Shown here piece after piece: positions 3,300 through 62,639 of a stretch of DNA of 64,000 nucleotides. Each line of letters begins with the position of its first letter. Position 1 is the stretch's first letter. The translations under genes were made by a program, and so were the position numbers. This DNA is from Ophiura sarsii (lineage: Eukaryota > Echinodermata > Ophiuroidea > Amphilepidida > Ophiuridae), in assembly GCA_035610835.1 (NCBI GenBank), contig CM069442.1, positions 30,271,798 through 30,335,797 on the forward strand. The letters are read 5' to 3'. Below the pieces are notes generated by a model that was given only the letters and a program-made list of their open reading frames with translations, made no database searches and was not told the DNA's origin.

Positions 3300-3456
3300 C
3301 TGTATATCTGTTAATAACTGGCCAAACTTTGGTGCTTTTATTGACCAGTTATTAAGTAACTTCACAGCATTGGCAAAATTACTGACATAGTCGGAGTAAA
3401 GCATAAGAAATGGAGCTAGCCTCTTGAGAATGTCTCCTATGCTTGGATTCTCTTCC
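3300..3456 (-). CDS. FGD: FGD-like Cdc42 GEF, DH-domain exon 3 in window (3'-most)
   Basis: Internal exon of a FYVE/RhoGEF/PH protein that would activate Rho-family GTPases (Cdc42 in the known family) at the actin cortex. On the minus strand a pyrimidine tract and CAG precede the exon, and CAG|GTAAGT follows it. The first base completes the Trp codon begun in the 7455-7603 exon. The next 52 codons read EENPSIGDILKRLAPF, then MLYSDYVSNFANAV and WSIKAPKFGQLLTDIQ. This matches the middle of the FGD DH domain, where family members have [22 protein letters not shown] and end the segment with IQ. One position that is usually Lys in PFLKMY is Met here. The exon ends in phase 0. The next expected exon (family motif LTLQHHMLEPVQRIPRY) was not found in bases 1-3299, so the gene runs off the left edge. 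Family assignment rests on remembered family patterns, not a search. Confidence 0.95.
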
Positions 3457-3502
3457 CTGGAAGAGAAAGGAAATCATAGAGTTCATTTATTAAAGTGGTT
3501 TC

Positions 3503-3862
3503 ATGGTGGTTAACATCAACTGGAGACAGCATGTGACAAATGAGGACCTGTACAGGGATATGCCCAAAGTCTTAGATAAGATCAGAAAACATAGAGCAAG
3601 ATTTTCCGGACACTGTTTCAGAGGTCCAAATGAGCCTGTCTTCGTACTCACACACTGGATTTCAAAATATAGAGCAAGAAAGGGTGGTAGAGCAGCCCTA
3701 ACTTATATTGACCTACTAAAGTGTAACAGAATTGAAGGTAGAAGAAATCAAGATTTGGAGAAACATTGTGGTTCAGAAAAATCACCAGACTTAAGTCAAT
3801 TAAGTCAATGGCCGTTATGGGGTGAGGGGTTGGTTGGTAATATACTGATGTTGTCGGAATAA
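3503..3862 (+). pseudogene. RTE-like non-LTR retrotransposon, 3' end of the RT polyprotein (fragment)
   Basis: A 119-codon open stretch reads WRQHVTNEDLYRDMP, then KHRARFSGHCFRGPNEPV and KGGRAALTYIDLL. This is the C-terminal tail typical of RTE/craniofacial-development-protein-2-like retroelements (TNE-LY and GRP-LTYID motifs). The catalytic RT region and endonuclease are absent, so it is a truncated remnant lying antisense in an FGD-gene intron. Confidence 0.75.
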
Positions 3863-4200
3863 GGCATAATATATGGAGGTTATAGCCTCTTGTGAATGTC
3901 TGAGTCTTCTGGGACATCTGTGTTCATACAAAATGTCAAAACACATTTTAAGATTTCACAACATGATGTTGTCGATGTATGTCTGGAAAAGGGTGCATTT
4001 TAGGAAAGGTTTGAGGATAGAATTGATGGATGCTACACACAGCTACTTCGAAGAGTACTTAACTCTTTCCAGGTGTCAATTGTATTTGTGAGTGGAATAA
4101 AAGGGAGAAAAGACAGAGTAAGTAATATTTAGCTTGTTTTGTTTTGTTTTGTCAACATACGCATTAAGTGTGTGTAGTAAAATACATTCGCCATTCATGA

Positions 4201-4298
4201 CAGGGCTAGTACATTTTTTTACTCATATATTTAATTCAATGACTTTCCATGACATTAACAACAAGTAATCAATGACTTTTCAATGACTTTTCCAGCCC
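4201..4298. repeat. Short sequence with CAGGGCT...AGCCCT ends
   Basis: About 98 bp beginning CAGGGCTAG and ending CCAGCCCT, with TGACTTTCCATGAC-type words repeated inside and again at 4400-4455. The ends resemble hAT-type termini but I see no 8-bp target duplication, so the call is weak. Confidence 0.35.
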
Positions 4299-4914
4299 TC
4301 TGATACTCCCTTGTGAATTTTTAATGGCATTGAGCCAAGTTTCGATCAGTTTCTCTATCTACATTTGTATATTTTGCTTTGAAATCTTGCAAATTCGATG
4401 AATTTCCATGACTTTTAAAGGTGAAGACCCTTTTTTCCATGACTTTCAAGGCCTGGGATATAGACAATGTCACCTCACACGTCACAGTAGCCAAGCAAAC
4501 AAAAGCTTGCCTGCCAACGTTTGCCCGAATTACCTGCAAATCAAAACCTTGCCTGCCAGTGTGTGCACGCACATTCAAAGAGGTCGTGTCTATGATAAAC
4601 CATACACTAAACCAAACCAGTCATCTACAGTAATTAACAGCATGCAGTCAATACAACAGTCAATGCATGTTCCCACAATGCATGGAATGGAACAGGGCAC
4701 TTAACATTGTTGATCAACAAGAGATGATAGGTAAGAGATTAGATTTCTTTTTGCACAAATAAAAAGTGAATGAGATACTCACAATTTTAGTTACGTTTCA
4801 CTGCTAAACTAGCAGACACTATGACACTATGGCAGCAATGACAAACCTTGGTATTAATTTCTGATTTCTATGTCAAAAATACTGCAAGTCACGACTTGCG
4901 AATCCCCCTGGCTG

Positions 4915-5745
4915 GCAGATTCACCTAAATGGGGTCAAAGGTCACATATGGGTCATTAGAGGTCAATCTGGGTATACCCTATGAGTCATCTCAAATCCCC
5001 TTACCCATTGTCACCAAGTTTAGTTGAGATTGAAGTTTGACTTGTCATATGAGAGAGAGAGAGGGCCCTAACGTTTTGACAAAAGGGGTGTAAGGTCATG
5101 TAGGGGTCATTACAGGTAAATCCGGGTACACCCCATGTATTATCTCAAGTCCCCTTAATACCCAAAGATTTTTGTCTCCCAAAGATAGTTTGGTTGAGAT
5201 TGAAGTTTGACTTTTCATATGAGAGCCCTAAAGAGCAATACGTGCAGTTAAAAGCGTTGACAAATTGGGGTTAAAGGTCATGTAGGGGTCATTAGATGTC
5301 AATCAGTGTACACCTCATAAACATCTTAAGTCCCCTTACCTAAAGATTATTGCCACCAAGCTCGGACAAGATTGAAGTCTGACTTTATATGAGAGACCTA
5401 AAAAGGTAATAAGTGCAGTTTAAAATGTTGACAAGATTTATATCAAAGGTCATGTAGGGGTCATTAGATGTCAATCAGTGTACACCTCTTAAACATCTGA
5501 AGTCCCCTTACCTAAAGATTATTGCCACCAAACTCGGACAAGATTGAAGTCTGACTTTATATGAGAGACCTAAAAAAGTAATAAGTGCAGTTTAAAATGT
5601 TGACACGATTTATATCAAAGGTCATGTAGGGGTCGTTAGAGGTCAATCTGTGTACACCCCATGAGCACCTCAAGCCCCCCCCCCCCCCCAGCCCCCCTCC
5701 CCCTAACTAATGAATATTGTAACCAAGTTTGGCTGAGATTGAAAG
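4915..5745. repeat. Tandem array of about 180-bp units (4-5 copies)
   Basis: Units repeat the series GGTCATGTAGGGGTCATTAG, GTCAATC-GTGTACACC, AAGTCCCCTTACC, GATTGAAGTCTGACTT and CATATGAGAG. Copies 3 and 4 (about 5277-5635) are nearly identical. The last copy is invaded by poly-C. A single diverged copy in the opposite orientation lies at 27121-27270. Confidence 0.9.
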
Positions 5746-5749
5746 TTTA

Positions 5750-5780
<31 letters not shown>
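5675..5780 (+). repeat. Poly-C runs (15 and 30 bases)
   Basis: C runs at 5675-5689 and 5751-5780 at the end of the 180-bp tandem array. Long uninterrupted C is a mutational hotspot and error-prone in sequencing, so the lengths are uncertain. Confidence 0.9.
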
Positions 5781-5784
<4 letters not shown>

Positions 5785-5894
5785 GCTTTTCAAAAACCCA
5801 AATGACAGATGGCCGATATCGCGTGCTAGAAATCATGTTTAATGATTACAAATTTTGACCAAAACCATACCGGAACAACATAATGATGATAAAT

Positions 5895-6080
5895 TTTTGA
5901 GCAGATAATTTTTTGCGCTTTACAGATTTTCAACTGTTTTACATGTTTTTTTAATTAGCTATTTGTAGTTTCATCACATAGACGTATACGTAAACAATTA
6001 AATTTGCGTGCTTTTATTTTTGCGGCAGCTGGTTCAAGCGCGAAAATAAATGTAGCACGAAGATTTCCAATCTTACAGTA
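5895..6080. mobile_element. MITE of the CTGTAAAAG family, inverted copy
   Basis: Reads as the reverse complement of the 595-791 element: TGTAGTTTCATCACATAGAC, then TTTTTGCGGCAGCTGGTTC, then AATAAATGTAGCACGAA and the TCTTACAGTA end. The left terminus is eroded. Confidence 0.8.
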
Positions 6081-6893
6081 TAGGTACTTCTTTGTCCGTC
6101 AATTAGGATTAGTTTCCTGACATGGATAAGTTCATAAAATTTAAGAATATTTCATGTAATATATCATTTAATTTAAGAACTTTAAATATGTTAGGATTAC
6201 AGCCAAATCTTGTCAGAATTATGTCAACATTTCTTGGCAAACTATTTTTCTTGATACATTAATAATCATGTTTGATGAAAAACTATTCTGACATGTTCTA
6301 ATGTCACAAGTATGTTTATGATAATAATATAGGTATGTGACCCGGTATGTGAAAAGGAATGAAAAAGTTGACGTGAATAATTAAGAGCACAAATTTAATT
6401 ACTTAAACTGTCATACGGGTTTCAAAACTATTACTCATGTATACAAAAAGTCAAGGCCAGCATCTAAAACTAATTTATCCACATTAAACAGGCCAAATAA
6501 CAAACATATCATAAAAATTAGGCAAAAAACAAAACAAGTTTGTCTCAGAAAGCTGCGCGCTTAACTTTTTTTAGCCTTACCTCTCGCCTCGCTTCATTTT
6601 TGGGACCCTTTGCTTCATTTCTAATCGTTTTTGTTTGCAACTTTCTGCTTATAATTTTTTATTGGACAGCGTGATTGACTTCCTTGGTCAAGATTCTGAG
6701 TTTCCCCGAGTTCTTTCAATTTGTTATATACTTATTTCTTCTCTCTTATAATAAAGGTTTTTTGAATTTATCTTGAATTTATCTTGATCGTTGTACAAAT
6801 TAGCCAATGAATCAATGTGATAGTTCATGAATATATATGAGGCATAATAAGGTCTTCTATAACATGGTCCATCTCAAAGAATACTAAACTCTA

Positions 6894-7156
6894 GGGTCCG
6901 TATGCACAAAAGAGTTAGACCGGGTCCAAAGTTAGACCTGGTCTAAGTAGATTTTAGTTTTTGTGAAAGCACACCTTTAATTACATTTCCTTCTCAAATA
7001 AGCTAACACATTGTAAAGATTCGGATGCAAAGTTCAAAAAGAGCACAAAATATCTTATGAAAATGCAGAGGAAAACAGATTTTGAGGCATGAATAAATTT
7101 CACTTAAACCAGGTCTAACTTTAGACCCGGTCTAACTCTTTTGTGCATACGGACCC
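6894..7156. mobile_element. 263-bp MITE with about 48-bp inverted ends
   Basis: The left end GGGTCCGTATGCACAAAAGA and the following GTTAGACCGGGTCCAAAGTT reappear inverted at the right end (TCTTTTGTGCATACGGACCC) with few mismatches. No coding capacity. The family is not recognised. Confidence 0.9.
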
Positions 7157-7454
7157 ATGAAGTTGCACCTGCATCAAAATCCAAAATCTGATGCGAATCG
7201 TTAATGTGACATTCCACGCTCAATCAAAAATGCTACGCACGCTTTCAAGCATGAAACTGCGTTGCATGTGGCACCGCATAAAATGAGACGCATCCGACGC
7301 ATGTATGTGCATTGAAACGTTAAAACGAGATGCAATTACGCTGTCCACTTTGACGGCGAAATCAATTAAACAAAAAATGCCAAACACCACGACCAGATCG
7401 AACAGTGACCCTGGTAAAACTCTGTTAGTGCTCTGTCTGTGGTCATCTACTTAC

Positions 7455-7603
7455 CATTCTTTCAACCTCTTTTCAAGATCGGGAAGTAAAAAGTTTTGAT
7501 GAAAGGCGTAGATTGATCTGAGATTGGAGAATATATCCCTGGTGACCTCGGGACTAAACCAGTGCGCCCTCTCATTTTCCCGCTCTATCCTTGCTAGAAA
7601 AAC
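7455..7603 (-). CDS. FGD: FGD-like Cdc42 GEF, DH-domain exon 2 in window
   Basis: Internal exon, 149 bp, flanked on the minus strand by ACCACAG before and G|GTAAGTAG after. It opens in phase 0 and reads VFLARIEREN, then EVTRDIFSNLRSIYAFHQNF and LLPDLEKRLKEW. The final Trp codon is split two bases to one across the intron. IFSN-SIYAFH-FLLP-LEKRMKEW is the DH-domain text typical of FGD1-FGD4, lying between the first conserved DH helix and the IGDIL segment. The downstream intron is about 4.0 kb and the upstream one about 1.6 kb. Phase and content join cleanly to both neighbouring exons, which makes this triplet of exons the strongest gene evidence in the window. Base composition is visibly richer in G and C than the surrounding intron. 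Confidence 0.95.
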
Positions 7604-7703
7604 CTGTGGTATTGAACAATAATAGTAGCAAACAATTACAAATTGTATGGTTCATAAATGAGGTTGTCAATATTGAATTAATAAATTTAAAGTTCATTAT
7701 GCA

Positions 7704-8213
7704 CACTGTAAAAGTGTACATTTTCGAGCATGTACATTTTCGCACTTTGCACATTTTTAACAATTTTGCTTGTTTTTATTTTTGCGTTTTGAGCTTCCTT
7801 ACATAGACCTTGCTGATTTAGCGCAAAAATAAATGTAACACTTAAAGGTAGATGTTCCGATTTTCAACTTGAAGTTTTCTATTCTATATTAAAGGTCATC
7901 CTTAAAAAAGTCGTGTTCCAAAGTTTGAGTTGCATAGCTCTAATGGTTCTTATTTTAGATGCACAAGATGCTGTGAACTGTACCCATTGAGTAGTACACA
8001 AACTATATCGGTGGTTACCACCATTCGTGGTAATTCAAAGTTATTTCATCAATTTCTCCGTAATTATACCGATTTAGGCCGTCAAATTTCAGTATGATGA
8101 TGAGAAAAATAAGAGCTTTCATATGATATGAAAATCTCCGTATGTTTGAAATAATTCTGTGTTACGAAAATGTGATCGGGTCATCTACCTTTAACATTTC
8201 CACTTTTACAATA
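7704..8213. mobile_element. CTGTAAAAG-family MITE split by a nested MITE
   Basis: The left part (7704-7845) carries CACTGTAAAAGTGTACATT and AAAAATAAATGTAACAC. The right part (8191-8213) carries CATTTCCACTTTTACAATA. Removing 7846-8190 plus one TTAA restores the order seen in the intact relative at 45838-46031. Confidence 0.85.
7846..8190. mobile_element. 345-bp MITE with AGGTAGATG ends and TTAA target duplication
   Basis: Bounded by TTAA at 7842-7845 and 8191-8194. Ends are AGGTAGATG and CATCTACCT. It lies inside another MITE, so it is the younger insertion. Subterminal pairing is weak beyond the first 9 bp. Confidence 0.85.
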
Positions 8214-8439
8214 ATAAGATCAATTTGAAATATTAGCAAATAAAGTCCTCAAAAATACAGAAGATAAGAAGAAAATAGGTGATACTTATCATATCTTCAA
8301 AAAACTTTAAAATATAATAATTATGGTCAACATTCGGAGGCATTTTAATTTGATCCATGTTGTTGTGTTGATTTCAATGTAAAAACTTTGAAATAGCATT
8401 AGGGTTAGGGTTAGGGTTAAAGAAGGAAAAGGTGACCTT

Positions 8440-8757
8440 TAACAAGGATTATAGCTCAAAGAATCATACTCATAGCAAATGATAGATTCTTTAAGAAAAT
8501 GTATGAAGTAATTGGGTGATTCAGTATTGTTAGTAAATTTGTCTTATATAAGCCTAACCATTTGGCTATTTTTACAAAGATGACACATGACTAATAATGG
8601 CCCAAGCAACTCTTAGTGCGGATTCTCTGAAATTGGCTATTTTGATACCCTTAGCATGGGCCCACGCTGTGGTCGAAAAAAGCACCCTTATTCCACATTT
8701 TCGTACACGCGGATGATTACAATACAATATTATACATGACTGCCCCCCCCCGGGCAT
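8440..8757. repeat. Repeat family with C-rich ends, copy 1
   Basis: Shares AGATGACACATGACTAATAA, GATTCTCTGAAATTGGCTAT and GATGATTACAATACAATAT-like words with 23880-24371 (inverted) and with the element at 59147-59824. It ends in ACTGCCCCCCCCCGGGC. Confidence 0.75.
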
Positions 8758-9172
8758 GTGAACTCATGATCCCATTGCTAGTTTATACCTGCTTTGTGGT
8801 GGTTGGTCACATTATGTGATGTGATCAAGTAAAAAGGAGTCACATGTGGGCAGTTTTCAATTTTGATATTTGTCCATCATTTGAAAGCAAGTGGAAAATG
8901 CTACTACATGGTCTAAACCCCACTAAAATTGAACTTCTAATTTTTAAGTTTACAAACAATTCACTAACTAAGAAAACAAAGTAAAACATAAGAACATGTC
9001 ACTTCTTTTTACCCAATAACTTAAAATCAATATTCCCGACAGACATTCGACTCTTTCCACTTGATCGCATCACATATACCCCTCAGAGTCAGATTCAAAA
9101 CCTTGTGACTCTCACTGATAAAATTCATGCATTTCTGTCGTGTCAGACCCATCTCCTAACCTTAATTCTTAC

Positions 9173-9286
9173 CTGATCTAGAAGATTCAACCTGTCTACA
9201 TATGTCCTCTCCGAAGTTAACACCTCATAGGCAACCTTGTGACTTTCGTTGATAAAATTCTCTGGTTTTGGAGCTTGCTGTTCACG
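9173..9286 (-). CDS. FGD: FGD-like Cdc42 GEF, DH-domain exon 1 in window
   Basis: Internal exon of exactly 38 codons, phase 0 at both ends. The minus strand shows an acceptor with TTGATTTTCAG and a donor CAG|GTAAGA. It reads REQQAPKPENFINESH, then KVAYEVLTSERTYVDRLN and LLDQ. The second half is the start of a DH domain: the first conserved helix, in which FGD proteins have LLHTEKAYVSRLHLLDQ. The break directly after LLDQ, followed by VF in the next exon, matches how the family sequence continues. The first 16 residues are a linker with a PKPE stretch. Phase 0 also fits direct joining to the 30571-31262 exon, though a small exon inside the 21.3-kb intron could have been missed. Confidence 0.94.
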
Positions 9287-9513
9287 CTGAAAATCAAGAT
9301 GTCAAACGAAAATATTATAGTACATTCATATTTTGTAGTGCTTTAAATATCAGAAGCATAACAAAATGGAGGGTAATTGAAATTGTTTTGGGTTGAGAAT
9401 GGTATTCAGATGGCACCCATCTACCTGATGAGTGATGAGAAGCCCTCCTCCCCCTCCCCCTCCCCATCAACCCTGTCCTGCTTCCTATATCTACACTCAC
9501 AGGCTTACCAACC

Positions 9514-9778
9514 TTAACACTTTCCATGAGGCCATTAGTTTACCATACAAAACAATTTGTTTAGACACTTTTGCAATTTTCAAAGTCTATCTCTAGGATT
9601 GCTGAACCAATACAAGGCATGTTTGAACCAATACAAGGCATGTTTGTACTTATTTCAATGCATTTCTCATGTTGATTCCATAAAAGGTAATGAAATTCAA
9701 TAATTTCGACATATTTGAAACATTTTGTGACATTTTGGAATGTTGTCTGCAGAATGCCTGTCGCGTGGAAAGTGTTAA
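9514..9778. mobile_element. TTAA-type MITE (CACTTTCC ends), copy 2
   Basis: Bounded by TTAA; the right end is GTCGCGTGGAAAGTGTTAA. It is longer than its relatives because GAACCAATACAAGGCATGTT occurs twice in direct succession near 9604-9643. Confidence 0.9.
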
Positions 9779-9917
9779 CAGAGTTGGCGGAAGCCTTCCA
9801 CATTGAAGTAAGTTCTCCTCATAAGACCCTATAGATAAGGAATCTTGGTTACAATGCCATATGATGTGAAAAATCAACAATATGACAACACAATAATAAG
9901 TACAATACAAAGTTACT

Positions 9918-10042
9918 ATGAGTTTTTTCGTGCAAATTTGGTTGAAAATTAAAGGTAACAATGAAGCATAGTGGGAGTCACAAAAGTAAAGGCAGCAAAT
10001 GAAATTTTTAAAATTTAGCAGCAAATTGTTAAGATTTTTGAC
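9918..10042 (+). repeat. Dispersed direct repeat, copy A
   Basis: Shares TTTTTTCGTGCAAATTTGG, GAGTCACAAAAGTAAAGGCA and TTTAGCAGCAAATTGTTAAG with 10686-10785. Copy B lacks about 25 bp in the middle. Confidence 0.85.
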
Positions 10043-10323
10043 CATATTTCTCAGCAAAATTAATAGAATTCAACCCTTTGAACCCGACAGGCCAGTTTAC
10101 CGGCCACCAGGAGAACGTAAAATAACCCAACAAAATGTGTGTGAAGCACTCAAATACTTTCCGTTTTTGAACTAATAAAGTACCGAAAAACTGTAAAAAT
10201 ATTCCTAAATTTGTGTGACAAATTTAGTGTATATTGAAGCTTAAATTGATGAAACTGTGAACTTATAAGCGCAAAACATGGCAGTTTTAACACTTCCATT
10301 GTCGTGATCTTTTAGGGAGGCGT

Positions 10324-10347
10324 CCCCCCCCCCCCCCCCCCCCCCCC
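10324..10347 (+). repeat. Poly-C run (24 bases)
   Basis: Uninterrupted C run preceded by AGGCGT and followed by ACACC. Confidence 0.9.
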
Positions 10348-10479
10348 ACACCTAAAAATGTATGGGTGGGGGACGTGACCTCCTCCCCTGGCTACAGCTG
10401 TATTTTTCTAAATGTTGGCTGACAAAATGGCCCAAAATAGAAGAATTCCCAAGACAACATGAACAACTTGTAATAAGGG

Positions 10480-10565
10480 ACATAATTATTATTATAAGGA
10501 TTTATATAGTGCATTTCCAAAAGACCAATGCGCTGTACAATGTATACATTAGATAAAAATATGTT
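10480..10565 (-). repeat. SINE/L2-type 3' tail fragment
   Basis: Read on the minus strand it gives GTACAGCGCATTGG, then CACTATATAAATCC and an ATAAT-rich end. This is the tail pattern shared by the L2-type elements and the SINE elsewhere in the window. The body is missing. Confidence 0.5.
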
Positions 10566-10685
10566 GAACAAAAACCAGCAGTTATATACGTACATAATAT
10601 AAATATATAGTAACTGATAAAATACACAAAAGCAGAAATATCACACAGCCCGACCCCACACACACCCCCACACCATGGGAACAGG

Positions 10686-10785
10686 TGAGTTTTTTTCGTG
10701 CAAATTTGGTTGAAAATTGGAGTCACAAAAGTAAAGGCAGCAAATGAAATTTTAAAAATTTAGCAGCAAATTGTTAAGATTTTGG
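10686..10785 (+). repeat. Dispersed direct repeat, copy B
   Basis: About 100 bp matching 9918-10042 (see copy A). It ends immediately at the truncated 3' boundary of the retrotransposon fragment 10774-11272. Confidence 0.8.
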
Positions 10786-11272
10786 TTTCGCGCTAGTTCG
10801 CCTGCCAACATGGTAAATAAGACGCGCCGCGCGATTTTGCAGTCTTTGTAAACGCTTAGTCTCGGTCGCAGACAAACCGCCAAGCAATGAGTTGCCATAG
10901 TCCAACCGGGAAAGAATCAAAGATCTCACTGCATGTGCACAAGTAGATTTATCCATAAAACGATGGATTCTCCACAAGTTTCTCAAATGAAAATTAATGC
11001 TTCTACATAATGTGCTGACATGATCTTTCATGGAGAGGCTACTGTCAAATATGATGCCAAGGTTTTTAACATTCTTTGAGTGGGCAATCACCCGAGCCAC
11101 CGATATTCAGGTGGAGATCGAGTTGAGATACAGCATTTGCAAGCCTAGGTGGAGAGATCACAAAAAGCTCTGTTTTAGAACCATTTAGCTTTAATTTGAA
11201 TGCACGCATCTATGATCGTATCTCAGCAATGCAATTGGTCATGTTAAGCTTAGCAGCAGCTGTATGATTTTG
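10774..11272 (-). pseudogene. CR1/L2-type non-LTR retrotransposon, RT C-terminal part (broken)
   Basis: Minus-strand text reads AAAKLNMTNCIAEIRS, a stop, then MRAFKLKLNGSKTELFVISP and SQLDLHLNIGG. A frameshift follows near 11100, then VKNLGIIFDSSLSMKDHV, LRNLWRIHRFMDKST and LILSRLDYGNSLLGGLS. LKLN-SKTE, LGV-D and LDYGNSLL are the usual motifs of the RT thumb/C-terminal region in CR1/L2 elements. One in-frame stop and one frameshift make it a dead fragment. Confidence 0.9.
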
Positions 11273-11738
11273 ATGACGAAACGGGAGACAAAGTGAAGTT
11301 TTTAAAACTGCACACTACTGTTCACTTTCAGCATAGAAATTTAGCAACCTTGGTGTCATCATCACTGGAAATGTGTTAATTGAACCTGTACCCTTATCAG
11401 CAGGTAATTCCGGGAAGAAAATGTAAAGTCTTCAAGTCTTCAGCAATCTCATATCCCCAGGACAGGGGAAGAGCCTTCACCAAGAGTGTGGAATACAAAT
11501 CATATCAACACTTATGAAAATAAAATTAAAACATCCTCAAATCCAATCTTATTTGATTACCCTTTGAAGACTTACCCCTATGCACCCCTTGTTGGTTGTC
11601 ATGACGCCCTAATCAGTTTCTTAATCAATTATTTCCCAGTTTTCTTAATGGGCTCTAAACACATACAATTTGCCTCAAAACAAGTGTACTTAATCTTACT
11701 TTTCTCAATTATTCGTTTTTCAAAACCCCTATTTTACC

Positions 11739-12210
11739 TACCGTATCCCTATTAAGCGCCCAGGGCGGTTAACTAAGTCATTTTAGGTGGGCGCTTATTT
11801 GTATACTGATTTACAAAGTTGTTGACCGTCAAGGTTGCAAAATTCATCAACCTTTACGTCCCAAGACTGCAAAATTCGATGTTTTGTAATTCAAGATGAC
11901 GGCCTCCACGAATGACAATAAACACGAAACATGCGTATTTCGGATGGTTTCTGTTGCTGTTTGAAGGCATAGCACATGGTTTAAGTTCACTTTTGGATCA
12001 CAAACAATATGTCAAGTATGTCTGAAGTTAAAATAACCACAATTTCCTCTTTATTTTCAAGCAATTTGTAGTCCGAGACTTAGTGTGATATGAGTAACTT
12101 TTAAGTAAGCTTATTTTTTGGGTGTGCGGTTAATTAGTTTATATTTTTAAAGTCACCTGAGGGGGTGGGCGCTTATAAGGTCCTGGGCGCTTAATAGGGA
12201 TAATACGGTA
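11739..12210. mobile_element. 472-bp MITE with TACCGTATCCCTATTAAGCG ends
   Basis: The left end TACCGTATCCCTATTAAGCG plus CCCAGG is mirrored at the right by CCTGGGCGCTTAATAGGGAT plus AATACGGTA. A TA target is plausible. No coding capacity. Confidence 0.9.
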
Positions 12211-12589
12211 CATTAATTCTTTCCCAAGCTTCAACCTGTAGACAGGATATCCGGGGTTGGGGTCCACATATACATTTCTACCGATTTTTTGAAAACAAAA
12301 GATGTATTTTTGGAGCATATTCACCAAGTAGGTTTTTAAGATTATGTGTAGCAGCAAAGTGTACATCTTTGGGGATTTGGAGTGGTGTGGTAGGGGGGGG
12401 GGGGGGGAGGGGGGAGTATCCCCTCCTACCCAACTCATCACTAGACATGCTAACATCTTTTGAGAGAAAAAATAGTCAAACTTCTACAAGGGTCCTTTTT
12501 CACCGCACAACAGAGATGAGGTCTTACGAGAAAAAAAGGTGATCTTCTGAAGATATCTCACTTTGTACTTTGTGGGTACTGTTAATTGA

Positions 12590-12675
12590 AAATGTTTGAG
12601 GAAATACCCTCAAACCCATATGTTAACCCCCTTAAAAAATTGATACACGTTACACCTCTTTAAGAGTGTAACCCC

Positions 12676-12720
<45 letters not shown>

Positions 12721-13150
12721 ACTAGGACATAAGTCTCACACCTTTCATCTGACACCATCCTGTAACACGCTCACTGTTAGGGAAAATACCCTCAAACCCA
12801 TATTTTAACCCCTAGAAAAATTAAACCTGGTACACCTCTACAAGAGTGTCACCCCCTGCCCCCCAGACCAGGGCATAAGTCTCACACCTTTCATCTGACA
12901 CCATCCTGTAACACGCTCACTGTTAGGGGAAATACCCTCAAACCCATATTTTAACCCCTAGAAAAATTAAACCTGGTACACCTCTACAAGAGTGTTACCC
13001 CCTGCCCCCCGGATCACTGTCAAGGAAAATACCCTCAAAGACATATTTTTACCCTTAGAAAAGTGATACCTGTTACAGACCTACAAAAGTGCCACCCCAC
13101 CCACTGGCCAGGGCAACTTTTGTCTGACACCATCCTGTAACAGGCTTACT
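12590..13150. repeat. Tandem array of about 148-bp units (4 copies)
   Basis: Units repeat GGAAAATACCCTCAAACCCA, GTACACCTCTACAAGAGTGT, CACCCCCTGCCCCCC and CATCTGACACCATCCTGTAA. Copy 1 has the same CCCCCTGCCCC block expanded to a 40-base C run (12679-12718). Copy 3 is shortened and copy 4 is the most diverged. Confidence 0.95.
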
Positions 13151-13327
13151 GTCAAACACTTATCAATTAACACCTGGTTCGAAAAAGCAATAATGTCATA
13201 TAAATACGCAGTAGTCATTTCCTAATAGGTAAGTTTCGAAGCAAATGTTGCGTTAAGATTTAATACAATCATAGAGTCACAATCTTTGAGGTAGCAATTT
13301 TTGTCTTATGTTAACGTCAATGTTTCA

Positions 13328-13560
13328 TTAACAATTTCTATGCGGCGATTGGTCGAATACCATAATGTAAAATAGATCTTTTCAGAAAATATTCCCAACT
13401 TTAAAAAAAACCCTCAAAATTACTGAGACACTACTAAGCTTGTTTGTACTTCTGTTAATGTATGTCTCGTGCACGACAATTCCAAATATCGCAATGAAAT
13501 TTAATTATTTTGAAATTTTTGAAACATTTTGTGAACTTTTGCAAACGGTCGTCTGCACAT
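13328..13560. mobile_element. TTAA-type MITE (CACTTTCC family), old diverged copy
   Basis: Starts TTAACAATTTCTATGCGGCG and keeps AATTACTGA, TGTTTGTACTT, TTTTGAAACATTTTGTGAA and CGTCTGCA in the family order. The right terminus is lost. Confidence 0.7.
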
Positions 13561-13665
13561 TTTACGATTACCTACCTAATTATCTGAGGAAAAGTGTTTC
13601 AGAATGAGAATAAAGATATTATTTCTAGCCTCAGTTGTGTCATATCACATGGGCAGCAGCATTAT

Positions 13666-45527: not shown

Positions 45528-45539
45528 AGTATACAGGTA

Positions 45540-52400: not shown

Positions 52401-53026
52401 AATGTCAATTTAAACACAAAATATTCCAAATGTTGCTTGCCACAATGATCTCTTTTGAAAATCGATACAATCAATGACTGGACCATGTTCGGCAAAAGGT
52501 AGTGTGAAAGGTTATTTGGTGAAGGCCTATCCTGATTCTAATTTCTACTAAAAAGTAGGTATTCATCCATTGTTTGTGCAGTTAACAAAGCAATAATTGT
52601 GTGGTACAAAGCAATTATTCAGCTTCAGTGATATAACACTATTCTTCATTTTGGTGACTGTTCTGAACATAATTATTGTGGTGGGTCTATCATTTGTTGT
52701 GCTGAAATTGAAAAAAACGGTTTCTACTGATTTTCAATAATGTCATGCCACACTGGAACAAATAAAGGTTTTTTGAGGCAATTAGCCAAATAAGGAGGAA
52801 ACATTTCATGAGATAAAATGAGATCCACTGTTGATTTTATATTTTTAGCAATTTTTTGAATATAGTATATCATTCTGAACACCAAAACTTTGTTTAGCTC
52901 ATAAAAACTTTTACATTTTGATAGTTTTGCTTATAATTCCTTATATTAGACTGCTCATAGCTCCCCTAATAATTATAAATAGTGTTGTCATTACTTATCA
53001 TTAAAATGAACCCTAACACCCTAGGG

Positions 53027-53385
53027 CAGGCCTTCTCAAATGGTGGCGCGCGCGCCACTTGTGGCGCATTGCATCAGTCCGAGTGGCGCGCGGAATGACG
53101 AATGGAGAAGAAGAAAAAATTAAAATATTTAAAAAAAGAAAAAAGAAAGAAAAAAGAAAAAGAAATATATCCCCAACTTCAACCAGATCGAAAGAAGCAT
53201 GAAGAGCCACTTCAGCCACTAACTGCAGTGGGATAAGTCATGTTATTAGTAGTAGGCCTATTGATTATCACTACATTTTCTACCATTTTTTGTACATTTT
53301 ACCATCAACATCTCTGTATTTCTTGTACCATATTGCATGCAAATATAGCTCTCCTTAGCCGCTTAAAAGGGGTAAACCCATGAGC

Positions 53386-53430
<45 letters not shown>

Positions 53431-53567
53431 CACCAGGAACCATAAGGCGAGTCCCTGGACCCCACCCGTTTTTCGCTCCGCTCGCTACGCTCGCAGGGAT
53501 ATTGGCGCTTCTAGATCACTAACATCTCAAAAGTGGTGCTTTATAAAATGTAATTGAGAAGGCCCTG
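53027..53567. mobile_element. hAT-like non-autonomous element, 541 bp, 8-bp target duplication
   Basis: CAGGCCTTCTCAAATGG on the left, TTGAGAAGGCCCTG on the right, with CCCTAGGG at 53019-53026 and again at 53568-53575. An 8-bp target duplication with CAGGG-type ends is the hAT signature. The interior holds an A/G-rich stretch and a 43-base C run (53387-53429); no transposase. Confidence 0.93.
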
Positions 53568-55418
53568 CCCTAGGGTAAGGTCCGAAGTTTACCGCTTTGT
53601 AACTGTCTAATTCCACGTTTTTCCGCTTTGTAAATTTTGCATTTTTCTGTGATGTAATTTTCCCCAAGAAAGCTTAAAATTTACGATCTATAAAACCAAA
53701 ATAAACACACTTTACAGAAAAACACATCATTTTAGATTTTTAGGCTTACGAATTATGAACTATGAATTATGGTATGGAGTTCAGCGCGGAGTTTTATATT
53801 TAAATATTGTTTGTTTTGTTTTATTATGTATAGTTTTTTAATATTTATATTGTTTATTCAAGACTATTTATAAATTGTGTGTTTTGGACATTTTTTGTGC
53901 ATTTTTTATCTTCTTTTCATCAAAATGTCATTTTCCGCGTTCAACCTAGGGATTGTTTTAAGTATAAAACTGTTAGAAAAATGGGCAACATATTGAGGTC
54001 TTACCAGGGCCAGGTATTGAGCCTGGGTTGCCAAAGTAAAAAACAATAGCCAAAGATACTCGACCAAGTCGGTTGCACTTCCAAAATGGAACTTTTCAAT
54101 CACTTTAGCCTTTCACGATTATGCAAAGAGCAAAACCATAACCCTAACCCTGCTAAATCTAACAGAAGCGCCGTGCCGGTGGACCCCAGTCCCCAGTCAT
54201 TGCGCTATCATGCAAAGGTACATATAGGCTCCGAAAATTTAAGTTTGGGAGCGTGACCCCCCTTCCCATAGTATGGTGCACGATCACCTGGACTCTGGTA
54301 TTAACAAGAAATAATTGGTTATGCCTCCCCTGATCACTGGTCGGTCCCCCCGCCCCCCCCCCTCCCCCCCACCATGCCCCTCAAATTGAAGACCCTAGTT
54401 ATGCCACTGGTAAGCTGCATCACTTTATCAGAGACGATACGGTTACATACGTATGTTTATGATCAGCTTTAATAAACTTCAACAAATTCAATGTTATGAA
54501 AGTGTAAGTGCCAACTTTCATTGACTGTTCATAGATAGACGCTTGAGCACCCCTCATTAAGGATATATGCGTCACATGTATCAATAAAAATAGCACCATG
54601 AACTTCCTGCTATTGTGTTGAGGTAGTACACAGAGCCAAGAGCAGAATCATAGTTGGAAATAGAACAAATTATTTGCTCATAAAACGCTTCCTTAATTAT
54701 CATATAGGTGCATAAATCACCAACACTTTTTATATGAAATTGAGAAGAATCCCCTGCTTTCCGCTATTTTCAGATTATAGCACATCTATGTTTCTTTATC
54801 GATAAATACTAAAAGCCATGAACATTTTTGCATATGAAATTACCAATTTTAGCCCCAAAAAATGAAAGCAAAAATGCAAAAACAAAACGAATTCTGTATC
54901 ATTTGCAATGTTGAATTGATTCTTAGAAATGTACAAACTCACCTCATTCTTTGCAAATGTCATACTTTGCCTAAATGTCATATTTGTATGGGCAACAATT
55001 ACAATTCACAAAATGAAAATCTATTAAACTTGAAGGATAATGGAAGGAAATGGTTTTGTATTAGTTAGTATCATATTACAGGGTGAGTCCAAAAAAACTA
55101 CTCAAAATGAAATAAATATTTTAAATATTTCTGACCATAATATCAAGAAAAGCAATGCCAATTATAGTAATGGCAGTATTTTTTTTGCTATTATCAACAA
55201 AAAAGAAATTACAGGATTTCATGGTTTCCTTCCTTTACTGTGTTTTTGAAACCAAAAATTAAAAAAATTCCTAAATGTTTTCAATCACCAATTTACCATA
55301 TGTCTCTTCATTTTTCCAATGATACCACATTTGTAGAAATTACTTGTTTCAGTGCTCAACAACTTGCTTGAGAATATGGTGTTAGGTATGTATCTGAATG
55401 TGCCAACATTATCACTAC

Positions 55419-57044
55419 AGGGTGCGTGCAGGCAACTCTCTTTCAAATTCAAGGACTTTTCAAGGACTTTTCAAGGACCAATAGTTCATATTTCAAGTAC
55501 CCTAAGCAAGCCTTTTGTTAAGTCAAGATGGACCAGGAGCCAAATATCTGGAAAAAGCGGCTCCTGGTCCTCAAAATTTGGAGAGGACCAGGAGCCGCTT
55601 TCCAAGACCAGGAGCCAAGCCTTGAAATAAGCGGAAAATGACCAGGAGCAATTGTTTTTTGAAAACTTCCCCTGGTTCACGGGAATTTTTAAAAAGTGAA
55701 CAATTACAACTAAAATGCACTTTTACATTGTGGATATTAACTGAGTTATAGGCATTTAAACATTTCCTTTAACATAGGCTTTCAATTGAAAAAAGAAACT
55801 TTAAATCCAAATATATCCCTTACCCCAAAGTTTTGAACCACGAAATTGATACGCCCTGAAGGGATAGTTGATTAGACATTTCTAGGTTTTTTAAAAATCC
55901 CCCCCCCCCCCCCCCCCCCCCCACACACCAGAAATATCCCATACCCTAACGTTTGTAAACCGTAAAGGTGATATGACCTGATAGTTAAGTTGATTAGAAA
56001 CAGTTTCAGTTTTTGGAAGAACCCCCTCCCCCTCCCATCTCTTCCCCTCCATATGCATAACCAATGCACCATCCCCTCCCTCTCCTAGGCTACCTCTATT
56101 CCCCCCACCCCCTATCGGTATTCCCTCACTACCCTATCTTCAAGAAAACCAAGTTATGTCCCAATTAGTATTTTTTTATATCACTGTAGTGTATAATCAG
56201 GGATTAGTAATAACATCTCTCTGGTATAATATATTAAAATACCTTCTTTAAATTTACTAAATTTAACCACTCCCCTGGTCCTTCCTACCTATCCCCTCCC
56301 TCCCACTATCAACATCTCCTCCCTCCCCTTATCCCATTCCCCTCCCTCCTCTATCCAGACTTTCTCCTATTCTCCTCCCTACCACCGTCCCCCACCCTTC
56401 CTCCCCATCACTCTCCCCTATCTCCCCTATTAATCATGCCTGATATGCATTATTTATTCACAGATACTCATTTGCATATGAAAGAAATATTTTGGTTGAC
56501 CTGTTCATGACCTAGGGAAAGGGACATTTTCAGCCAGCACGCACGTGCTCATTAACACGTTACATGCTATATGCTTACTTCACAACTTATTGGCTGGGCT
56601 TGGTTTAACCAGTGGTTTAACACTATTTATCAACAATTTATCTTAAAAAGAGTATTTAATCCACAATAAATAACTGATAACTTTCAATGAATAAATAAAG
56701 ATGAAAGAGTAATAGTATGGAAAATAAAATGAGTAAAAACGTAACTTGAAAACTTGGAAGAATTTATTTGAGGTGCTCAGCATTCGAAGGGTTTACTATT
56801 AAATATTAGTTATATGGCACTGCGACTGCGACTGCGGCAAGGTAATGTTGGAAAAATGAATGGTAAAATCGGAATATATATGGGCTAGGTATGGCTTCGG
56901 CACATTTGGTTTTTTCAAGGACTTTCACCAGACTTTCAGGACTTTTCATAAAATCCAAGGACTTTCAAGGCCTTGAAAAAGGAATTTCATTTTCAAGGAC
57001 TTTCAAGGACTTTTTTGGCTTTTCAAGGATCTGCACGCACCCTG
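55419..57044. mobile_element. 1.6-kb element with ACAGGGTGCGTGCAGG ends
   Basis: ACAGGGTGCGTGCAGG at the left and CTGCACGCACCCTGT at the right, each with TTTTCAAGGACTTTTCAAGG phrases just inside. The interior holds a GAGGACCAGGAGCCGCTTT palindrome (55552-55603), a 24-base C run (55899-55922) and CTCCCC-rich text. No transposase frame. Confidence 0.85.
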
Positions 57045-58049
57045 TCACTATTTTATGCTCAAAAGTCAACCGAGCATCAGTCATCAATTCAATTGAATAA
57101 GTAGAATTTCAAGATTGAATAGAGGACCAAGTTTGATGGCAAATGGCACAAATGTGATATCTTTGGAAAGATGAACACATCTATGTGCAACACAGATGGA
57201 TAGACAATATAATCATGTCATTGGATATCAGAAATATAGCCAGTTGAAAAAAACTTTTTCAAGGGGTTTAGATTACCTAAAATGAAGTACATGGCAACTA
57301 GTCCAGATAGTCTACATGTACTTCATTAATCCCTTTTTCCTTTTCCTCGTCACTCTATGAACAACAATCTCTGGAAGGGCTCACCACTCTCCCATCAGAC
57401 ATCCACTGATCGCCCCTGTTTTGGGGCGGTTCCTGGATAGGAAAGGGTTTTTGCCCGGAGAAGTGAGCTGAAATGGGCCCTCTTTAGGTAAAAAGGGTGT
57501 TGTTCGATAGAGTGATGTGAAAAAGGGTGTACGAAGTTGACTAATTTCAGATATGCATTGAATGGATGGTGTGCAAATGATTACAAAATGAATGGGGCAA
57601 TGACGGATAATAGTAATTGAAATAAGATTAAGGACATTTCCGAGCACATAGCAGGCATGTTGTTGTCCACATTCCTGAGCTATGCGTGCATGTTTGAACA
57701 AGAGACAACTCCCTTTCAAATGGGTCCATTGGGGGAAAATAGGCAAAACAAGATGTAACAGAGGTGTCACATCCATAATACATATGCAATATGCAATGTC
57801 ATGAATGTGTGATGCCATCTGGCTATTATAGGCAGTAGTGGCATAAGCATGATACATTCAGAGTTGTATAACAGTGAATGAAGTGGGTGAGGCTACTATA
57901 TATGTATTGGTGCCAATCAGCATATATGTACTTGTTATGAACGTGAAAGGCACGGTATTAATAGCGGAATGTATATGGAATCAAGCCAACAAATCAGTGC
58001 AACAATTTTATCATACTGTACAAAAAGACATGAAGTTGAAGTGTTAGGG

Positions 58050-58132
58050 CCTTTTCACGGGTCACTCCCATTTCTGAGGTTTTGAACTCCCACGGGTCAC
58101 TTCCATTTCTGAGGTACGGGTCACTCCCATGC
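58050..58132 (+). repeat. CGGGTCACTCCCATTTCTGA minisatellite
   Basis: Three imperfect copies of CACGGGTCACTCCCATTTCT then GAGG, directly before the 58135-58641 MITE. Confidence 0.8.
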
Positions 58133-58134
58133 CC

Positions 58135-58641
58135 TATAGACCATTTCAAATTGAGATCGGAAATCTTCGGAAAAACAGGTCACATGGAGTAGGTGCGTTG
58201 CGCGTTCTTCGCAACAGTTGATCGCATTCACAGCATTGCCCTAGTTGATTGTCCGCCTATGTTTACCTACACGCGTGCTCACATGAGAAGTAAAACGTGG
58301 AACGAGACTATTTTGGTTTTTTATCAACAAAGGCGCTGACGGACAAATTCCAAATGTATCGAGCAGACGGTAAAAAGTGAAAATATTACCCCAAATCTCT
58401 TTCATCTCACTCGTTTTTGTAACTGAAATGCCGCAACATCAACTTTGTGAGGGATACAATCTATCACCAACACCAGCGCAATCTACCACACGGGCAGACG
58501 GGTGAAAAACACGTTGTTTTTCTCCGGCACATGGCCATGACCTGTCAGGAGCTGACAGGTCATGGAACGAGTGTCAAACACTCGGCTAATCGGAAACATT
58601 CGGAACCGATCGTATATTTTCGGATTTGAAATGGTCTATTA
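58135..58641. mobile_element. 507-bp MITE with TAGACCATTTCAAAT ends
   Basis: TATAGACCATTTCAAATTG at the left and ATTTGAAATGGTCTATTA at the right. Further inside, GATCGGAAATCTTCGG pairs loosely with CCGATCGTATATTTTCGG. It contains a perfect hairpin, CATGACCTGTCAG / CTGACAGGTCATG, at 58545-58573. Confidence 0.85.
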
Positions 58642-59146
58642 AGATTTTAACATTATTATGTTCTATATACTGCCTTCTGTCACTTTTGTATTACAGAGCT
58701 AAGACCCTGAAGCCATAAAGTATCAATTAGTTTGTCATGCTATTAGTCTGCTGCCGTAAAACACTGCCTTAGGGCATGACCACTGGCCTGCCTAATCTTG
58801 GAATCGGTGAATTTATGAACGGCCAATAGCTAAACGGCCGGTGTAAAAGTGATTAGGCAGTGGAACCCAATGAGAAACCCTTTTGTTTATTTCTGTGACC
58901 CAAAAGGGAATACATAAGATCTGGTGGTCCGATAATATTTAAAACAAAATTCTACTCACGTGAGATATTACTATTCCCCCATACACAGTATGCTAACGCC
59001 TTGTAAAATGTTAATAATATGTGATATTTAGAGCATGAATTACAGTTTTCTGAGGGTTTCTGTTATTTTATTTTGATTTCTATATCTTGTGCCAACCTCA
59101 TATTAGCCTACAATGATTTCTGAATGATAGGATACAGTATGTCTCA

Positions 59147-59824
59147 GGGGGGGGGGGGGGGAGCTCTCAGGCAGACAGATTGTAAGCATCCGTATGAATG
59201 CATTCCCAGAAACCACCCTTAGCAAGGATTGACAAGGAAATGAAAAGGTGACCCTTAAGAAAGAAAATTCTCAATCATGTAAAATCAGCCGGTTATTTGG
59301 CCGAAAATCTGTCGAAATTTTTTTTCACCAATTTAAAACAAAATTTGCCAAAAATCTGCTGACATTTTTGATCACACATTTTTAACAAAGTCCCTGATTT
59401 TTGCAGATTTTGGTGGCATTAAAGGTTTAAAAAAACAATAACAACAACAAAAATTGAACCTACTTGACAGATCCGTCCGCCCGTAAAACAGTGTGTGTGT
59501 TTTTTCGTCGCCTCCACAAGGATTTTACTTAGCAAATCAATCCCTCAACAAGAATACTTTTGAAACGATTCAAAATACACCTCTTTTCAGCAAGGATTGG
59601 CATGACATGTGCCCCTGGATAAGGAGATGTTTGTCCAAACGGCCTTTAAAGGAATACAAATATTTATCCCACTTATTCTCTGAAATTGGGTGATTTTGAT
59701 ACCCTTAACACGGGCCCACGCTGGCCTGTGTTGTCCTAAAACACCACCATTATTCCACTTTTTCATTCACACGAATGCTTACAATTTTGCATCTGAGAGC
59801 TCCTTCCCCCCCCCCCCCCCCCCC
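59147..59824. mobile_element. 678-bp element with poly-G start and poly-C end
   Basis: 15 G, then GAGCTCTCAGGCAGACAGAT and TGTAAGCATCCGTATGAAT at the left. At the right ATTCACACGAATGCTTACAA, CATCTGAGAGCTCCTT, then 19 C. The homopolymers are therefore part of the inverted termini. The core is shared with 8440-8757 and 23881-24371. Confidence 0.85.
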
Positions 59825-59982
59825 TCCCCGGTCTGCCTCACAATCCTTCCACCTCCTCTCTAATAGTGCACCTCAGGCTATCCGGTTACAATATAAAAAA
59901 ATGCAGGTTTGTTATATAATATTGGTTGTAGGTGGCCCATATGAATTTATCTTCACAGGTTTTTCTAATTACGGATATAAAT

Positions 59983-60058
59983 CGTTGCTGTTCTGACATA
60001 CCGGCACATCTCTTTACTTATTTCTGTTGTGATGTGCCGGTATGTCAGAACAGCGACG
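59983..60058. repeat. Long perfect hairpin (23-bp arms, 20-base loop)
   Basis: CTGTTCTGACATACCGGCAC then ATC at 59988-60010 pairs with GATGTGCCGGTATGTCAGAA then CAG at 60031-60053. Pairing continues a few bases beyond with one mismatch. Confidence 0.92.
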
Positions 60059-60424
60059 AAATTAAGCACGATCTCAATTGATAATGTAACACTTCTTGGC
60101 GGTGGATCAACAGGTTGAGGTGTTTTTAATTGGATTTATAGTTTAGTCCGTTCGAAATTGGCAAGAAATATGCCATTTTAATATCTCCGCACACGAAAGC
60201 AATCCTGGAGTATTTTAGTAATACGCACACGTCGCACATAGGATACGCATACAATACAGTGCTCTTGTTGTATTTATACGCGCCAACAATCTTCGGTATT
60301 AATTAGCTGTTGTAAGGAGGCATGCCAGTTTGGAGCTAATCAAACTATAGTAAATGAACTAAACTAAATAAAGGTTTTAACAGGATAAAATTTCAAATGT
60401 AATCATTTAAATAAACTATATTGT

Positions 60425-60640
60425 TCAGTTAGTTCCATCCAAATTGGCAAACCAACTTACAGCAGCGAATTAGAAGAGCATAGGCCCGCAAAAGCTCACT
60501 TGACGCAACTTGGTGCACTGCGAGTTGTATGCCTATACCAAAATAGCGCGCATACGCTAAGATTACTTTTGCATGCAGAGACATAAAAGCGCATACCCAG
60601 GGAGCGCATATTTCTCGCAAATTTGGAACTGATTAAACGA
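60425..60640. repeat. Element with CAGTTAGTTCCATCCAAATT ends
   Basis: TTCAGTTAGTTCCATCCAAA and TTGGC at the left loosely mirror GCAAATTTGGAACTGATTAA at the right. Related half-sites occur near 60140 and 60330. The interior is GCGCATA-rich. Confidence 0.5.
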
Positions 60641-60883
60641 TAATAGTTGTCAGTTCATTGAATGGAGTTACATCATTCTCTTTTTTACAGGTAGATAGGG
60701 AACCATTTGGACACTTTTTTGCGTAGGAGTTTGCTTAGTACTAGAATTATAAATACATTATGACAATAAAAAGTTACGACCAGGTGGAACCAACTGTTTG
60801 TCCAAGTCTGAGACGAGATTTTTCTCTCACACAATGGACCACAGTGCCAAATATAGGTTTCCTATTGCATTCCTATAATATAC

Positions 60884-61090
60884 AGGCCCGGAAATAGCAC
60901 CCACTCACCCACCCGCCACAGCCCATAGCGGGTAATCTTTGCATCGGGCGGGTGAAGACACCAAAGTACCCATCCGGCTGGGGGGTAAACATTTTCAAAC
61001 TCACAGTGTAAGTGAGTTACACTGGCTGGTGGAATTTCTGTCAGGCAGGTTTTTTGTGAGTTATCTGCCAACTGTCTGGTTGATAAAAAT
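60884..61090 (+). repeat. CTGGCTGGT repeat family, copy 3
   Basis: CAGGCCCGGAAATAGCACCC, CCCATAGCGGGTAATCTTTG, GAGTTACACTGGCTGGTGGA, same order as 50769-50985. Confidence 0.8.
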
Positions 61091-61231
61091 CTGAAGTTCC
61101 ATCTCACCTATCTAGGTGGTGTAGTAACATATAACAAATCTAACTAGGCCCACAAGGAACATGATCAGTTGCTCATCAGCCAATTGATTACTCTATTAAT
61201 TAGCATAAAAGACTCTCGACTTAGTCATACC

Positions 61232-61392
61232 CAGGGCTCAAATTTAATCGGGGCCATTGGCGTCCCCTTTGAGGTTTTGCCTTGGTGCCCCAGACCTTTG
61301 TTAACTTTCAAGGTATTCTTGACCATTTGTTGGCCTTAGTGCACCATCATAAATTTGAAATTGGGTGCCCTAAAAATATAATTTGAGCGCTG
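61232..61392. mobile_element. 161-bp hAT-like MITE with 8-bp target duplication
   Basis: CAGGGCTCAAATTTAAT ... AATTTGAGCGCTG, flanked by GTCATACC at 61224-61231 and again at 61393-61400. Terminal word and 8-bp duplication both fit the hAT superfamily. Confidence 0.92.
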
Positions 61393-61447
61393 GTCATACC
61401 TATATAAATTGTTGCATTCAAAGTTATACAATGGTGCAATGGGTTAT

Positions 61448-61540
61448 ACAGGGTGATTAAAAACAGGTTTACTCAACTTTAGGATTTTATTTCTAAAGAT
61501 CTATGCAAACATTTCTTGGATTATTTATTTTGACAGAGAG
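61448..61540. repeat. Single TACAGGGTGATT end
   Basis: TACAGGGTGATTAAAAACAG start of a CAGGGTG-type element. A possible partner (GGGACACCCTGTA) lies at 62698-62710, beyond the candidate exon, so pairing is doubtful. Confidence 0.4.
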
Positions 61541-62212
61541 GCTATATATATATCTCATTAGCTTTCAAAAGAATTTCGATTGGTTACATAAATTAACTGT
61601 GTTTCAAGGAAAGCCTAAAGAAAAAAGGGATCTTGCCAGGAATGCTTTCTTCAGAGACTTGTGGAGTATGTTTGTAATAGATGCTTTCAGAGATAGACCT
61701 TAATTAAAAGCGGGGCTCTCCAGCTGTTTGTGGAAACATCGATATCGTGTAGGCAAAGAATGCCTCGCTTTCGTTATACGATATGGTAATGTTTACATTA
61801 TTCTCGTCTGTTTTGTAACGCAATATCCATGTTTACCCCATCAATGACAGGAGGGTGATAAATATAAGATCCATAGATTGAGGATGTGTTCATTACAGAT
61901 TTATAAAGAGAATGAATGCAAAGGTGTATGTGCAACAATTGACTATATTATTGCAGAAGCGTGCAGATAATTGATGATATTTTCTAACTATATTGCAGAA
62001 AGAGAATTAGTCAACCCTCAGACCGGCACCATAAATGTGTTGATATCAATACATTTTCACCCAGGATAAATTGCAGAGTTGCTGCGTTAAACGTGGATAT
62101 TACAACCTATTAGCAGCGCTGATGGGGATGTACATGGCACTACATTGGTGGCATAATTAGATGAGCATGATTCAGGAGCAGCAGAGAATGCATAGCAATT
62201 AGAGCAGGGCTT

Positions 62213-62263
62213 CTCAACTGGCGACACACGCTCCATTAAACAATGTTGAGAACCCCTGATTTA
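62213..62263. repeat. Tiny CAGGGCTTCTCAAC ... GTTGAGAACCCCTG sequence
   Basis: Two hAT-type termini of the GGGTTCTCAAC kind face each other only about 50 bp apart, as in an extreme internal deletion derivative. I did not find an 8-bp duplication. Confidence 0.5.
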
Positions 62264-62438
62264 GAGTTCATTTGGAGCAAGGCTCTCAAAATCTAAACAT
62301 CATTATTTTAACTACAGTATTCCCCCACCGACCACAAAGCATGCAAGCAAGACCAAAACATAAAGGTGCAAAAAAATAATAAAACACAGAACAAAAAAAT
62401 AAATAACGTGAAAACCAACTCAAACAACATCAGCTTAC

Positions 62439-62639
62439 AAGTAAGTCCACAACTCTGCATACGCGTTGCCCTCGCTTTCTGAAACAGGCCCGTCACTTGC
62501 TGTATTTTCAACATCTGCGTAAGGTCGCCGACAGACCTTGATCGCCTACGACTTTGAAAAAGTTCGTTTCTGAGGAGTTTATTCTCCCTGACGGGAACAA
62601 TATGAAGGCTGTACGGAGACTCATACTCAGTGTAATCCT
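62439..62639 (-). CDS. Candidate upstream exon of the FGD-like gene
   Basis: A 201-bp candidate exon. The minus strand has a long pyrimidine-rich acceptor (TTTCTTTGTATCCTTT, then ACATGCACAG) and a donor CTT|GTAAGC. The open frame reads DYTEYESPYSLHIVPV, RENKLLRNELFQSRRRS, RSVGDLTQMLKIQQVTG and LFQKARATRMQS. Codon choice is rich in G and C, unlike the flanks. It starts two bases into a codon and ends one base into one, and that last phase fits the 31262 acceptor of the next exon (joined codon TCT, Ser). No domain is recognised. The RRRSRSVGDL stretch looks like a basophilic-kinase or 14-3-3 type site, which is inference. An acceptor two bases further in (62637) is also possible. The open frame continues past the donor into a hydrophobic stretch that I take to be intron. 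It could instead belong to another minus-strand gene. Confidence 0.6.

Follow-up and report, generated by a model that had tools for sequence, protein, structure and literature searches.

Raw genomic sequence may hold genes whose exons are short and far apart, and the locus considered here raises the question of whether five such exons belong to a single gene and, if so, to which family. The window, that is the whole stretch of 64,000 bases of Ophiura sarsii DNA that was analysed, corresponds to C2:30271798-30335797 in an assembly of 1,573,662,873 bases. The original prediction described one RhoGEF gene of the FGD family, read on the minus strand and spanning nearly the whole window through giant, repeat-filled introns.

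Exon structure inside the window

The five minus-strand exons are borne out at the predicted bases and with the predicted phases (1, 1, 0, 0, 2, 0), all of them being bordered by AG acceptors and GT donors. Exon A (62439..62639, 201 bp, phase 1-1) encodes an N-terminal conserved stretch, VPVRENKLL...SRSVGDL...GLFQKA. It is followed by an intron of 31,176 bp (31263..62438, as given by the splice borders and lengths) and by exon B (30571..31262, 692 bp, AG/GT), the proline-rich and acidic/serine-rich linker on the 5' side of the DH domain. After the 21,284 bp of intron B/C (9287..30570), the DH domain starts in exon C (9173..9286, 114 bp), which ends after LLDQ, and continues beyond intron C/D (7604..9172, 1,569 bp) in exon D (7455..7603, 149 bp), whose end splits the Trp codon of KEW. 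Intron D/E (3457..7454, 3,998 bp) leads to exon E (3300..3456, 157 bp), again part of the DH domain and ending after DIQ. The left end of the window (1..3299) is the first part of intron E/F, 3,469 bp long as a whole; exon F lies on the minus strand just outside, at C2:30271627-30271540 (-170 to -257 in the window numbering). Once joined, exons A to E form a frame of 437 residues that is open throughout, and the coding bases amount to 1,313 of the 64,000 (2.1%).

The FGD-type DH text predicted in these exons was confirmed in two ways. The Pfam RhoGEF family matches the joined translation with 92 bits (residues 315-436), and exons B to E are recovered in order on the minus strand by a tblastn query with the Amphiura filiformis protein P0003 (E from 4e-9 to 1e-21). 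The matches reach 84% for exon C (E 1.5e-13), which is also covered by the Pfam RhoGEF match, 79% for exon D (E 1e-21) and 81% for exon E (E 9e-21). Also by tblastn, exon B matches P0002 at 71% over the exon and P0004-P0006 at 46-57%. P0003 starts within exon B and thus provides no test of exon A, to which we return below.

The gene beyond the window

The gene leaves the window at its left end. A RhoGEF family search locates the next DH exon to the left of base 1, at C2:30271532-30271633, and tblastn with P0003 over 204 kb (80 kb on the left, the window and 60 kb on the right) recovers the remaining exons in order and on the same strand. The last DH exons, the PH, FYVE and second PH (PH2) exons and the terminal stop exon extend from C2:30271627 down to 30222798 on the minus strand and are phase-compatible, the borders of exons F to Q having been read by eye from the sequence. 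The terminal exon R (C2:30222905-30222798, minus strand), found by means of the Amphiura C-terminus, reads ENDGPVF...YTVNAT and then a stop. The DH, PH and FYVE exons anticipated to the left of base 1 are thus present, with PH2 and a stop exon behind them, and it is not another DH family devoid of PH and FYVE exons that was encountered there. The resulting model comprises at least 18 exons and at least 887 residues without internal stop; counted from exon A as far as the stop codon, it covers no fewer than 111,639 bases. The idea of one gene running across nearly the whole window was therefore right about the gene and fell short on its extent, the actual span being larger.

The gene probably leaves the window at its right end too, since its start codon was not found. 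The urchin N-terminal text, searched in the window from 30001 onward and in the 60 kb upstream, matched exon A and gave no convincing match for a start codon or upstream exons. The other matches in this region are weak and mostly His-rich; 5' of exon A, the best one on the gene strand lies at 69453-69379 (E 0.007).

Two details concern the downstream half. The Amphiura protein has about 8 more residues between exons N and O; a micro-exon that could encode them was sought and rejected, even the best of 20 candidates being a weak match. At L011:5328-5806 (C2:30247125-30247603), a 122-base unit is repeated in tandem, with about 4 copies, the real exon start being counted as one of them; the array occupies part of the intron preceding PH exon I and the beginning of this exon. 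Each unit contains a splice acceptor and the opening portion of the exon. No donors are visible by eye in these copies, which might possibly act as decoy acceptors.

Exon A

Exon A was the weakest exon of the model. It could belong to another minus-strand gene or be a chance frame, the FGD gene then starting at or near exon B: a 31 kb gap separates A from B, the P0003 record starts inside exon B and has no exon A, and the window holds five other frames that reach 150 residues or more from stop to stop. Its codon score, 0.109 per codon, falls inside the range of exons B-Q (-0.07 to 0.30, the scored exon and exon A both being kept out of training) but is reached by 4.5% of 1,711 sampled stop-free windows chosen to exclude overlaps with minus-strand exons, so that codon usage alone is no proof of exon A. 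Such a foreign or chance origin is nevertheless very unlikely, in the light of the N-termini of related proteins. A profile was built from six non-ophiuroid echinoderm FGD rows (sea star, urchin and sea cucumber), with the window sequence excluded. Of the 5,204 ORFs that the 204 kb contain at 25 residues or longer, it matches only exon A significantly (E 1.5e-8, the next one at 2.9). Moreover, the urchin proteins P0056 and P0057 contain the exon A text (VIPLRQNKLL..SRSMPNL..GLFQKA; blastp E 4e-9 in a search of these 2 sequences) and run, 19-22 residues after it, into NKPP, the starting text of exon B. The profile result thus supports exon A as part of the FGD gene.

When nine further echinoderm rows are aligned with the window protein, sea stars, urchins and sea cucumbers show the exon A stretch. 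In this alignment Amphiura begins later, one S. purpuratus isoform row is devoid of the stretch, and the crinoid row shows no clear alignment at exon A; blastp finds a weak match for it at another N-terminal position (residues 36-75, E 0.001). Exon A finds two urchins, two sea stars and the crinoid by blastp at E 0.01 or better, and not the sea cucumbers. Of the 13 echinoderm rows among the best 120 of 2,131 protein matches (see below), 8 score at least 81 bits with the profile, 6 of these having served to build it, and scores are 9.5 to 10.1 bits in P0063, P0064 and P0065; P0003 and P0067 are absent among the matches listed, where vertebrate rows score about 1 bit. Used as a protein query, the initial 350 residues of the model matched only P0003, P0056 and P0057 among 1,802 candidates. 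Compared by blastp with 8 vertebrate FGD rows at their N-termini, exons A-B reach a best E of 0.63, and no match to the N-terminal F-actin-binding (FAB) region of frabin was obtained, a comparison to be read with the missing 5' end in mind and with rows that may not all hold this region.

At the place where P0057 has the exon A stretch, the S. purpuratus proteins P0063 and P0065 read EFQGLGLRD-SRRNKPP. A 201-base exon of phase 1-1, taken together with these two sequences without the stretch, suggests that exon A may be a cassette. On this basis, we tentatively consider a further and rather doubtful idea, whereby exon A would be a skippable echinoderm FGD module (VPxRxNKLL...SRSxxxL...GLFQKA), without counterpart in the compared vertebrate FGDs, and its alternative splicing would switch the partner of the GEF or its actin targeting.

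Copy number and integrity

A search of the genome with P0003 gave 21 matches among the best candidates scored: 13 of them correspond to exons of the gene, and the remaining 8, at 38-56%, to FYVE stretches at other places. Identity to P0003 stays at or below 93% in these candidates and falls within 60-79% for the majority of exons, and on these values Amphiura filiformis was rejected as the source of the window. No second copy of the gene appears in the assembly with this query, again among the best candidates scored. That the locus itself might be a decayed or non-expressed copy could be argued from the tandem partial copies of exon I, with their acceptors, in the intron before that exon, and from the fact that the junctions are predicted from genomic sequence. 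This is highly improbable: the 18 exons are stop-free with AG/GT borders throughout, the FYVE motifs are kept, and the P0003 query finds no better copy elsewhere in the genome.

Two FGD-like FYVE copies, probably FGD5/6-like, are located about 136 kb apart at C5:40835975-40836136 and C5:40699582-40699743 (L044 and L046). Over 2 kb their DNA is 93% alike, and the second one has a TGA inside the match.

Domain architecture and family identity

In the whole model, the RhoGEF (DH) domain is complete (PF00621, 164.4 bits, profile positions 1-180 of 180) and ends at residue 497. A PH domain directly follows (PF00169, residues 529-622; PF22697, 525-618), and then a FYVE zinc finger (PF01363, 66.2 bits, residues 660-722) with its motifs intact: WIKD for WxxD, RRHHCRACG and RVC. 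PF00169 scores 64 bits over two stretches of the model; the second PH domain, after FYVE, is attributed to exons O-Q, which match the end of P0003 at 72-91% (tblastn). Among solved structures, the closest to the DH-PH2 part are FGD5 DH-PH-FYVE (3mpx, 161 bits), FARP1 (4h6y, 116 bits) and FGD6 DH (9jb3, 111 bits), FGD5 and FGD6 having been compared only as such PDB matches.

The search of protein databases proposed with the original prediction gives, as its named top matches, Amphiura and then fish FGD4a; the very first match is P0002, an unnamed 240-residue piece corresponding to exon B, and three other unnamed pieces come between Amphiura and the fish protein. In a further search, the best 120 of 2,131 protein matches start with Amphiura, followed by other echinoderm rows, one marsupial FGD4 being found among them, and then by mostly vertebrate FGD4. 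The DH core text also aligns with two urchin proteins. The idea that the gene belongs to a different DH family (FARP, ECT2, ARHGEF, PREX) and merely resembles FGD has practically no chance of being right, for although the DH part does match ECT2, FARP and PREX structures in the PDB, a FYVE and then a second PH domain lie downstream, and the best 120 of the 2,131 protein matches carry RhoGEF, PH and FYVE domains.

A 21-row tree groups the window gene with Amphiura (100/100) inside an echinoderm set (100/100), which is itself apart from vertebrate FGD4 and fish FGD1/FGD3. This tree leaves out FGD2, FGD5 and FGD6 rows and has mixed fish FGD1 and FGD3 labels; the program warned of long branches meeting at the echinoderm/vertebrate split, the crinoid row being long. 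The gene almost certainly encodes an FGD-family DH-PH-FYVE-PH protein and is likely to be the single-copy echinoderm orthologue of vertebrate FGD1-4, nearest to FGD4/frabin. Owing to the long-branch warning, the mixed labels and the missing FGD2, FGD5 and FGD6 rows, orthology to the FGD1-4 branch, as judged from sequence, is only likely. The gene is assigned here to the FGD family, not to frabin in the narrow sense. It is an ordinary member of a well-known family, newly added; no paper on an echinoderm FGD4/frabin was found in the open-licence literature.

Comparison with known FGD proteins

The nearest named protein is the FGD4-like P0003 of Amphiura filiformis, with 81% identity from DH to PH2 over a 561-column alignment. 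It shares the DH-PH-FYVE-PH order and the C-terminal YTVNAT end, but its record (isoform X3) starts inside exon B. The sea urchin FGD2/FGD4-like proteins of Lytechinus (P0056) and Strongylocentrotus (P0057) have the same domains, with 53-55% identity over DH to PH2, as well as the exon A stretch and then NKPP. They differ by a long acidic and His-rich N-terminus of their own, which was not found within 60 kb upstream here; S. purpuratus P0063 and P0065, unlike the window gene, are without the exon A stretch. Vertebrate FGD4 (frabin) shares the DH-PH-FYVE-PH architecture at 42-47% identity (five rows), whereas the N-termini compared have no detectable match to exons A-B.

Proposed function

Passages of an earlier article describe activity of the frabin and FGD1 DH-PH fragments on Cdc42, PI3P binding by FYVE domains, and FYVE and PH domains thought to tie the protein to membranes (PMC3865658). 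According to the same passages, each FGD has an N-terminal region of its own, and actin is reached either directly (frabin) or via partners (the FGD1 proline-rich region); the frabin and FGD1 FYVE domains are said there to be without WxxD (PMC3865658). At this position, the window protein has WIKD and the fish FGD4a row WIRD, so that the difference from these passages is given no weight here.

By analogy with the family, the window gene product is predicted to be a membrane-held Cdc42 activator. Its DH-PH unit would act on a Rho-type GTPase, Cdc42 being the most likely one, and open it for loading with GTP; the FYVE and PH domains would anchor the protein to phosphoinositide membranes. Exons A-B encode an N-terminal region that has no Pfam domain and precedes DH, PH, FYVE and PH. 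This region may direct the protein to its partners or to actin, and exon A is possibly an optional piece of it.

Introns, repeats and neighbouring sequences

The introns had been called repeat-filled. The measured share of repeats is at least 21,226 of the 64,000 bases of the window (at least 33%), a lower bound because the comparison was made with a small sample (the 140 kb flank, 28 further loci totalling 89,115 bases, and the window itself); exons A-E have no repeat match. The long introns would reflect ordinary repeat accumulation in a large genome. A dispersed repeat of about 250 bases occurs at 2012-2243, 9514-9779, 13328-13557, 17822-18070, 32608-32837, 36942-37189 and 51162-51408 of the window, the copy at 17822 having 22 further matches, 73-90% alike, in the 204 kb. 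Intron E/F contains a tandem array of about 19 copies of a 20-base unit (917-1306).

Runs of C or G of at least 15 bases number 39 in the 204 kb (26 C and 13 G on the plus strand), compared with one A run and no T run, and fewer than 0.001 are expected under a first-order model. Ten C and three G runs lie in the window, for example at 5751-5780, 10324-10347, 12679-12718, 24316-24335, 37706-37731, 53387-53429, 55899-55922 and 59806-59824. This excess may conceivably be an assembly effect.

As regards other genes in the introns, the 10 longest of the 140 window ORFs of at least 70 residues, A/B ORFs aside, gave no Pfam match over the curated cut-off and two weak ones below it; the window has no RNA family at the gathering score and no tRNA. 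Downstream of the gene, L016 (C2:30191798-30201797) holds large minus-strand ORFs of 804, 703 and 334 residues, with C2H2 zinc fingers above the Pfam cut-off in the 804- and 334-residue ORFs and below it in the 703-residue one.

Significance

A gene with only 2.1% of coding bases in 64 kb could be read from raw sequence through splice phase and family text alone. The consequence is small outside annotation. The FGD family gains a probable ophiuroid gene, together with an N-terminal exon common to sea stars, urchins and sea cucumbers.
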